From Flavobacteriales bacterium (GTDB taxonomy: Bacteria; Bacteroidota; Bacteroidia; Flavobacteriales_D; Crocinitomicaceae), in the NCBI GenBank assembly GCA_009926125.1, contig RFPM01000008.1, positions 1 through 37,393 of the forward strand: 37,393 nucleotides of DNA. Reading direction: 5' to 3'. A program made the translations under genes and the position numbers. Below the pieces are notes generated by a model that was not told the DNA's origin, searched no databases, and saw nothing but the letters and a program-made list of their open reading frames with translations. Below are positions 15,811 to 20,069 of this stretch, in pieces (the first letter of the stretch is position 1; every line of letters begins with the position of its first letter).

Positions 15811-16803
15811 ATGGCAATATTGGATTTTCAAAAACCAGATAAGGTAATCATGATTAACTCCGATGAGTTCAACGGAGAATTTGAATTTCGTCCACTTGAA
15901 CCTGGATACGGTATCACAGTTGGTAACTCTTTAAGAAGAATTTTACTTTCCTCCTTGGAGGGATTTGCAATTGCTTCGATAAAAATACAAGGTGTAGATC
16001 ACGAGTTCTCAACATTGAAAGGTGTTGTAGAAGATGTAACTGAAATCGTATTAAATTTAAAACAAGTGCGTTTCAAAAGACAGATTGAAGGAACTGACTC
16101 AGAAACTGTATTTATAACTGTTGGTGGTCAAACTAAATTAACAGCTGGTGATATTGGAAAACATACAAGTGCATTTCAAGTTTTAAATCCAGATTTAGTG
16201 ATTTGCAACATGGAATCTTCAGTTAAGATAGAAATTGAATTAACAATAGTTAAAGGTCGTGGATATGTTCCTGCAGAGGAGAATAAATCATCAAACGCTG
16301 CTTTTGGAACAATTTTTATCGATTCTATTTTTACACCAATTGTAAATGTTCAATATACAGTTGAAAACTTTCGAGTTGAGCAAAAAACTGATTACGAAAA
16401 ATTAATTTTTAACATCAAGACTGACGGTTCTGTTCATCCTAAAGAAGCGCTAAAAGATGCAGCAAAGATTCTTATTCATCACTTTATGCTGTTCTCTGAT
16501 GAGCGTATTACATTGGATAGCGAAATTAAAGCTGAAACTGAGGAATTTGACGAAACATCACTGCACATGCGTCAATTGCTTAAGACAAAATTAGTAGATA
16601 TGGATTTATCTGTTAGGGCTTTAAATTGTTTGAAAGCTGCTGATGTAGAAACATTAGGAGATCTTGTTTCAATAGCAAAATCTGATTTACTGAAGTTTAG
16701 AAATTTTGGAAAGAAATCTTTAACAGAATTGGAAGACCTAGTTGACAACAAAAATTTGGTATTCGGAATGAATGTCGCAAAATATAAATTAGACAAAGAT
16801 TAA
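15811..16803 (+). CDS. rpoA: RNA polymerase alpha subunit
   Basis: A 330-residue alpha subunit. The N-terminal assembly domain contains [20 protein letters not shown] and [20 protein letters not shown], which hold the dimer interface and beta-contacting region. The C-terminal domain has [20 protein letters not shown] and [19 protein letters not shown], the two helix-hairpin-helix elements that bind DNA and activators. The arginine of SVRALNCLK corresponds to E. coli Arg265. The gene lies between rpsD and rplQ, as in most bacteria. Confidence 0.98.
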
Positions 16804-16813
16804 GATTTAAATC

Positions 16814-17572
16814 ATGAGACACGGTAATAAAGTAAACCACTTAGGAAGAAAAACAGGACATTTAAAAGCAATGCTTTCTAATATGGCTTGTTCTCTTTTG
16901 GAACATAAAAGAATCACCACAACATTGGCGAAAGCTAAATCACTTCGTGTTTTTGTCGAGCCAATCTTGACGAAATCAAAAAATGATACAACGCATTCAA
17001 GACGTTTGGTTTTTTCTCATCTGCAAAACAAGGAAGTTGTAACTGAATTATTCAGAGACATCGCTCTTAAAATTGCAACTCGAAATGGAGGATATACACG
17101 AATAATTCGTACAGGCTTTCGTTTAGGAGATAATGCTGAAATGTGTATAATCGAACTTGTTGACTACAACGATATCTATACAAACGAAAAAGCTAAGAAA
17201 ACAACACGTCGATCTAGAAGAGGTGGTGGAGCAACAACTCCTTCTGTTTCTGGTGAAACAGATGTTGAAGATGTAGTTTCGGATGAAGTAATTGCTGAAG
17301 ATACAGTTGTTCAAGACGCAATCGTTGAAGATGTAGTTTCTGAAGAAGTAGGTGTTGAAGAGACAGTTGTTGAAGAGACAGTTGTTGAAGAAGTAGTAGC
17401 TGAAGATACTGTTACTGAAGATGTAGTTTCTGAAGAAGTAGTTGTTGAAGAGACAGTTGTTGAAGAAGTAGTAGCTGAAGAAGCAGTTTCTGAAGAACCA
17501 GTTGATGAAGAAACAACCCCTGAAACACCAACTGAAGATTCAACTGAAGAAGAAAAGAAAGAGGAAAACTAA
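16814..17572 (+). CDS. rplQ: 50S ribosomal protein L17 (bL17) with a long acidic repeat tail
   Basis: Residues 1-118 are an ordinary bL17 ([20 protein letters not shown] at the start, [20 protein letters not shown] near its end), a protein that sits near the peptide-tunnel exit. The total of 252 residues is about twice the family core. A basic linker with [14 protein letters not shown] (126-139) is followed from residue 151 to 235 by 17 uninterrupted five-residue units of the form x-E-[E/D]-x-[V/I], such as [10 protein letters not shown] and VEETV. The last 17 residues are also Glu-rich. Residues 148-252 contain about 44 acidic residues and only two lysines. Tails on L17 are known in Bacteroidota, but this regular repeat is unusual to me. 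It is the last gene of the supercluster, followed by a terminator. Confidence 0.95.
17264..17518 (+). repeat. 15-bp coding minisatellite in rplQ (17 units)
   Basis: Seventeen in-phase 15-bp units encode five-residue repeats without any indel. A higher-order copy is also visible: the stretch beginning GAAGATGTAGTTTCTGAAGA at about 17327 recurs at about 17417, with the second block lacking one 15-bp unit. Near-identity at DNA level suggests recent expansion by slippage or unequal recombination. Confidence 0.88.

Positions 17573-17676: not shown

Positions 17677-20069
<2,393 letters not shown>

Follow-up and report, generated by a model that had tools for sequence, protein, structure and literature searches.

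In the stretch of DNA analysed here, called the window (37,393 nucleotides), carA and eno come after ribosomal protein genes, rpoA and rplQ; the names of genes other than rplQ are presumptive, assigned from their sequences. rplQ, which encodes ribosomal protein bL17, lies between rpoA (15811-16803) and carA (17677-18780), and is laid out as follows.

16814..17572, + strand: rplQ, bL17 of 252 aa (PF01196 and TIGR00059 profile matches)
16814..17167, + strand: conserved bL17 core, residues 1-118 (family profiles, alignment, moderate pLDDT)
17168..17227, + strand: linker, residues 119-138 (alignment of genus members)
17228..17263, + strand: lead-in without repeat, residues 139-150 (identical across the three closest genomes)
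17264..17518, + strand: array of 17 acidic pentads, residues 151-235, each encoded by an in-frame unit of 15 bp (repeat analysis)
17324..17413, + strand: 90-bp block of six units, with a VEETV unit exactly duplicated (block comparison)
17414..17488, + strand: 75-bp block, equal to the 90-bp block minus the extra unit, at 69/75 bases (block comparison)
17519..17569, + strand: C-terminal end after the array (nearly identical across the three closest genomes)

By its profile matches, the core is that of an ordinary bL17. The product scores 124 bits against PF01196 (cut-off 27; E 3.9e-36) and 129 bits against TIGR00059 (cut-off 70), and falls short of NF051448, the model for L17 with the sunset domain variant, with 138 bits against a cut-off of 280 and a match to residues 5-163 only. 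In the linker, KKTTRRSRR (residues 128-136) is invariant in 16 of 16 aligned genus members; the alignment of core and linker was confined to loci in forward orientation, which supplied 16 of the genus's 41 complete bL17 sequences. The bL17 chain of PDB 7jil, whose organism we take to be Flavobacterium johnsoniae, is alike in core and linker, and has 163 aa versus the 252 here.

What follows the linker and lead-in is a minisatellite-like array of units that run head to tail and in frame. Tandem Repeats Finder places arrays of periods 15, 30 and 45 inside 17246-17512, the acidic residues of the tail have an autocorrelation at lag five that lies 8.5 SD above that of shuffled tails (z = 8.5), and a listing of the units confirms that the gene, its coordinates, the 17-unit five-residue repeat and its acidity are as the original prediction described them. 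Some details of that prediction need adjustment. The motif given there, x-E-[E/D]-x-[V/I], strictly fits 13 of the 17 units, the exceptions being SDEVI, VQDAI, SEEVG and DEETT. The figure of about 44 acidic side chains is correct for residues 139-252; there are 46 in residues 119-252, and the pentads themselves hold 34, with no lysine or arginine. The near-identical 90- and 75-bp blocks are present, and are really one block with and without the exactly duplicated VEETV unit, the match of 69/75 bases being reached once that unit is left out. One block seen both with and without an exact extra unit directly records the duplication or loss of a unit.

The tail is probably disordered, as far as a structural model, which is compatible with disorder and is no proof of it, can indicate: in an AlphaFold2 prediction from 16 sequences (mean pLDDT 53) the core has moderate scores, and residues 137-252 are almost all below 50, without helix or strand. 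A search of PDB sequences with the acidic repeat, weakened by low-complexity bias, returned no ribosomal chain and a single unrelated match (0.0014, without an aligned stretch). Matches of the tails to Pfam HC2 and to NCBIfam histone-like models lie below cut-off and look compositional.

Is such a tail peculiar to bL17? When the window's genome (G000, a draft of 1.5 Mb in 157 contigs, 81% complete) was searched with the whole of bL17, acidic repeat C-tails were also found on bS16 (283 aa) and uS2 (332 aa), both encoded outside the window, and tails of like kind on these two proteins recur across the genus. bS16 and uS2 are small-subunit proteins, and their positions on the ribosome are taken from general knowledge. 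The bS16 chain of PDB 7jil, with 188 aa, has a short acidic end with EEVAEAAEEAPAAEE. The genus set consists of 49 genomes, G000-G048; of these, 45 yielded bL17, in 41 cases complete, and tails were read complete and free of N in 37 genomes for bS16 and 41 for uS2. The uS2 tail is itself varied. That of G000 is acidic and then basic at its end, and those of L234, L232, L233, L229, L231 and L225 (G018, G017, G026, G025, G032 and G030) are Lys-rich, with PAAKKATAKK-like sequence. In G034 (L256) the uS2 tail contains an assembly gap, a stretch of N, which gives an artificial open frame of 596 aa that continues into EF-Ts.

A mixed five- and six-residue acidic query, run against 61 genus genomes, matched 111 times, in 42 of the genomes, and 109 of the 111 matches fall in the same three genes (71 in bS16, 25 in bL17, 13 in uS2). 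Position alone places 104 in the tails of these genes, one of which (G008 bS16) starts two bases beyond the set limit; five more are contig-end pieces that stop immediately ahead of carA or rimM, being the remainder of bL17 or bS16. The last two, G013:C7 and G028:C71, with E of 0.2 and 0.3 and 35-38% identity, look like chance. With a query of six-residue acidic units, 26 matches were obtained in five of eight genomes; the same-strand ones lie in bL17, bS16 or uS2, counting a contig-end piece identified as the last part of bS16 ahead of rimM, and the others are antisense to these genes. In 19 genomes the mixed query had no match, and the tails of some of these had been read directly, so the search misses tails and the confinement to three genes is true only for what it can see.

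How fast do the arrays change? The closest genomes are the trio G000, G039 and G047, whose bL17 core DNA is 98.3-98.6% identical. In pairwise alignment their bL17 tails differ by gaps of 5, of 5+5+5 and of 10 residues, and their bS16 tails by gaps of 5, 20 and 15 residues, so that copy number differs in 3/3 trio pairs for each protein, read from draft assemblies. The bL17 tail of L145 reads the same as that of G039. The copy-number variation that had been suggested for strains is thus found between species, where the closest relatives differ by whole pentads and tail lengths range widely in the genus; the comparison of rplQ 3' ends proposed with it shows differing unit numbers, and the opposite outcome of equal length without repeat dynamics was not seen in the trio. 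Base differences point the same way. For bL17 the trio has a fourfold divergence of 0.033-0.05 in the core versus a tail difference of 0.058-0.137; for bS16 the tail difference is 0.088-0.13 versus 0.051-0.068 at fourfold sites; and for uS2, in the one pair available, it is 0.188 versus 0.095, with irregular gaps of 2, 27, 12 and 6. This rate contrast is only indicative, because the fourfold sites are few (59-84) and the alignment of repeats is uncertain. The whole-unit gaps are, at the level of sequence comparison, the stronger sign of turnover.

Of course most of the relatives are drafts, and arrays break assemblies, so that unit counts in the broken genomes may be wrong. In G010, G011, G012, G018, G021, G027 and G037 the bS16 gene runs off its contig in or near the tail, and in G008 and G034 it reads into N; contig ends cut bL17 in G001, G018, G033 and G036. 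Collapse of the trio arrays is less likely, if still possible, because each is contained within a contig and the units are not exact copies of one another. Copying among the three genes was considered too. Gene conversion between bL17 and bS16 is unsupported, 4-mer profiles from one genome being scarcely more alike than those from different genomes (218 of 2000 permutations match or exceed what was observed), as is copying between bL17 and uS2 (1209 of 2000 reach the observed likeness). The bS16 and uS2 profiles are more alike within a genome (13 of 2000 permutations, kinship ignored), and copying between these two may occur.

The unit length is itself labile. Across the genus, the bL17 tail after the RRG motif has 14-153 residues (median 83; median acidic fraction 0.35), and the bS16 tail after residue 150 has 38-133 (median 92). 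With a residue self-identity of at least 0.4 counted as periodic, 22 of the 40 bL17 tails of at least 40 residues have a period, namely nine residues in nine tails, five in four (the window's included), twelve in three, ten in two (including G047), and fifteen (G039), six, eight and eighteen in one each; 18 of the 40 have no clear period. Periodic tails number 32/36 for bS16, mostly with six (12) or eleven (10) and with fifteen in G000, G039 and G047, and 13/27 for uS2, mostly with six (11). Periods of six, nine and eleven are thus commoner in the genus than five. Judged by acidic residues alone, the best lag in the range 2-9 is five in 13/40 bL17, 21/37 bS16 and 4/29 uS2 tails. Since unit lengths vary in this way, a period of five is but one version of a broader pattern. 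Tail lengths correlate positively across species, kinship ignored, for bL17 with bS16 (rho 0.49, n=33), for bL17 with uS2 (rho 0.42, n=37) and for bS16 with uS2 (rho 0.32, n=33, P 0.07); the idea that a long bL17 tail compensates for a short bS16 tail is unsupported by these positive correlations.

Against this turnover, the acidic character is retained. In the trio, the bL17 positions with Glu at both -5 and +5 hold 60 E, 14 D and 2 Q of 76. At the in-register Glu positions of the periodic genus tails, bL17 has 361 E, 18 D, 5 A, 3 V and 3 S of 401, with two each of Q, P, N, K and L and one T making up the remainder; bS16 has 661 E, 16 D, 1 K and 11 others of 689; and uS2 has 165 E and 4 A of 169, without K. 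Asp thus outnumbers Lys by 34 to 3 in bL17 and bS16 together. From GAA, Lys is reached by a transition and Asp by a transversion, so the excess of Asp suggests selection against loss of charge; the units are copies of each other and a neutral control is lacking, so these counts are given without a P value. uS2 was tried as such a control. At fixed ±5 positions K is found at 0/366 in bL17, 2/516 in bS16 and 7/105 in uS2, with Fisher 2e-5 for the contrast between uS2 and bL17. Most uS2 tails are however out of register at five, and in register the control also fails, with 0 K/169 in uS2 against 2 K/401 in bL17.

Composition away from the tail ends agrees for two of the proteins. The mid-tails contain 8 K, 0 R and 929 D+E in 2618 residues for bL17, and 1 K, 1 R and 821 D+E in 2367 for bS16; for uS2 they contain 185 K, 22 R and 433 D+E in 1841. 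By comparison, the Lys content of rpoA, carA and eno is 7-9%. Where the units are five residues long, protein-level variation is on the whole lower at the two acidic codons than at the others. Within the trio arrays pN/pS is 1.29, 3.18 and 0.95 for bL17 and 0.43, 0.46 and 0.51 for bS16, and over arrays with at least six five-residue units it is 0.61 (six bL17) and 0.39 (five bS16). The frame is also kept. A tail of at least 55 residues is present in 40 of 41 complete genus bL17 genes, where the median fourfold divergence from the window's genome is 0.55, and the 41 tails contain 1088 Glu codons, each one base change from a stop. The single loss is in G019 (L032/L154), where a TGA ends bL17 at residue 152, just before an intact in-frame array; the same short protein is in record L154. 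This may be a natural truncation, an assembly error or recoding, and unless it is one of the latter two, the tail may be dispensable.

How much of this has been seen before? A 2019 survey of low-complexity regions (LCRs) in ribosomal proteins (PMC6821194) described, in its available text, C-terminal LCRs with more than 100 orthologues each for S2, S16 and L25 and at least 20 for L17, often Ala/Glu rich and placed on the ribosome surface; it argued that such tails must matter and, in that text, left their function open. The tails here are likewise C-terminal and Glu-rich, on bS16, uS2 and bL17, and presumably lie at the surface; we judged the bL17 tail low-complexity by its repeat and period, not by the survey's LCR program. 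They differ from the tails in the survey's available text in that the window's is built of tandem five-residue units, which use Val/Thr where those tails use mainly Ala. An Ala+Glu content above 70%, which that text gives as typical of the S16 class and not compulsory, is not reached, the 85 residues of the pentads having 26 Glu and 5 Ala. The kind of tail is therefore already known, which qualifies the original prediction's remark that the five-residue period was unfamiliar. Two things are added, relative to the survey's available text: tails of closely related species differ in length by whole units, and the conservation of their charge has been examined. In the literature searched we met neither of these nor a five-residue tandem in L17, and the main text of PMC9976891 makes no mention of bL17, bS16 or uS2.

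A parallel exists in TolA, an envelope protein. The tolA gene of E. coli likewise carries an in-frame coding repeat whose number varies (PMC3477136, available text); there the variation is at strain level, and here it concerns ribosomal proteins and is seen at species level only.

What might the tails be for? We give slightly better than an even chance to the following account: the bL17 tail is long, probably disordered and acidic, one of three on both subunits (bL17, bS16, uS2), in which slippage rewrites the units and selection keeps the charge, with a shielding role. Units would be gained and lost in whole 15-bp steps, as from replication slippage or unequal recombination, and composition would be held meanwhile through an open frame that is kept, replacement of Glu by Asp far more often than by Lys, and a scarcity of basic residues in the bL17 and bS16 mid-tails. 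Selection would then act on bulk negative charge and flexibility, not on precise sequence or unit length, and the tails might form an entropic, polyanionic shield that makes the ribosome less prone to adhere non-specifically to nucleic acid and cationic proteins; what is shielded may alternatively be the free basic ribosomal protein before assembly. As far as comparison of genomes goes, unit turnover, retained frame and retained acidity in bL17 and bS16 are established. The account is weakened by the uS2 tails, which are not uniformly acidic (207 K+R versus 433 D+E in mid-tails, and strongly basic in one part of the genus), and by a pN/pS that is not below 1 in two of the three trio bL17 arrays.

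One might think instead that the tails have no job at all, exposed C-termini simply tolerating low-complexity sequence made by slippage, with only gross harm such as basic or hydrophobic tails being purged. The fast turnover of units, the variation at positions other than the acidic ones, the differences in motif and unit length between species, and the truncated gene of G019 would all be expected from such a by-product. Yet a single tail has been lost despite the divergence at fourfold sites and the many Glu codons at risk, the query matches are concentrated in three ribosomal protein genes and are not spread over C-termini at large, and Asp is far above Lys at in-register Glu positions; we regard a pure by-product as unlikely, if a serious contender. 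The original prediction raised a third view, an arm at the tunnel exit, with nascent chains, trigger factor or the translocon as the targets on which the tail of bL17 would act. E. coli bL17 has 127 aa and no such tail; a 127-aa chain is listed among the PDB chains, without an organism. Since the same kind of tail is borne by the small-subunit proteins bS16 and uS2, in this genome and across the genus, an exit-site role does not explain those and loses its special support, and nothing here ties the tail to the exit. Placement does favour it for bL17, as the E. coli protein is situated at the vestibule of the exit and touches trigger factor, yet the contacts described in the available text fall in the folded part, at about residues 51-61 and 80-83 (PMC12752688). 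We consider an exit-site arm for bL17 quite improbable. The invariant basic linker, with the acidic array soon after it and acidity kept without fixed sequence, would also suit a built-in assembly chaperone, the tail folding back on the linker and keeping free bL17 soluble until it meets 23S rRNA; a comparable arginine-rich linker is absent from the bS16 and uS2 rows read, and this is, to our minds, the least probable of the accounts.

To return to the shielding account, the bL17 tail looks like a fast-changing, charge-conserved appendage of the ribosome, and not something special to L17. Ribosomal proteins are treated as slow and fixed, and here parts of three of them appear, in small samples, to be rewritten faster than the fourfold sites of their own cores; despite this apparent rewriting the bL17 and bS16 tails stay acidic. 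A more speculative extension, which we think rather doubtful, is that the three tails evolve as a single trait. They would make up a polyanionic coat of the ribosome, restricted to bL17, bS16 and uS2, and slippage of units, with selection for charge acting on it, would adjust the size of this coat from lineage to lineage. Were it true, the surface charge of the ribosome could adapt quickly as the core stays fixed. A genus with varied unit number, length and motif, and one apparent truncation, offers a natural variant series for testing tail function.

Beyond the genus, bL17 was found in 242 of 247 phylum-wide genomes, with open frames of 153-270 residues among the matches listed, and 130 further loci, some in genomes already counted, have C-tails that vary greatly in length and make-up, many acidic and some Lys-rich. 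A lag-5 z above 3 is found in 0/22 order-level bL17 tails outside the genus, and in the wider set a few pass it, such as L174 (3.1), L175 (3.5) and L209 (3.3). Elsewhere in the phylum, open frames of 285-467 residues around bS16, at least as long as the frame of 285 here, occur in L396 (G120), G105, G117, G131, G123 and G109. In some Bacteroidota a helix-hairpin-helix domain is fused to bL17 after a linker (LTKIEGIGPKIAE...), as at L166:1501-2313 (PF14520, E 6.5e-9), and L104, L291 and L323 have, by eye, a like fusion. This fused domain bears a likeness, at scores under the cut-off, to the C-terminal portion of NCBIfam models for some L21, S2, NuoE and phasin proteins.
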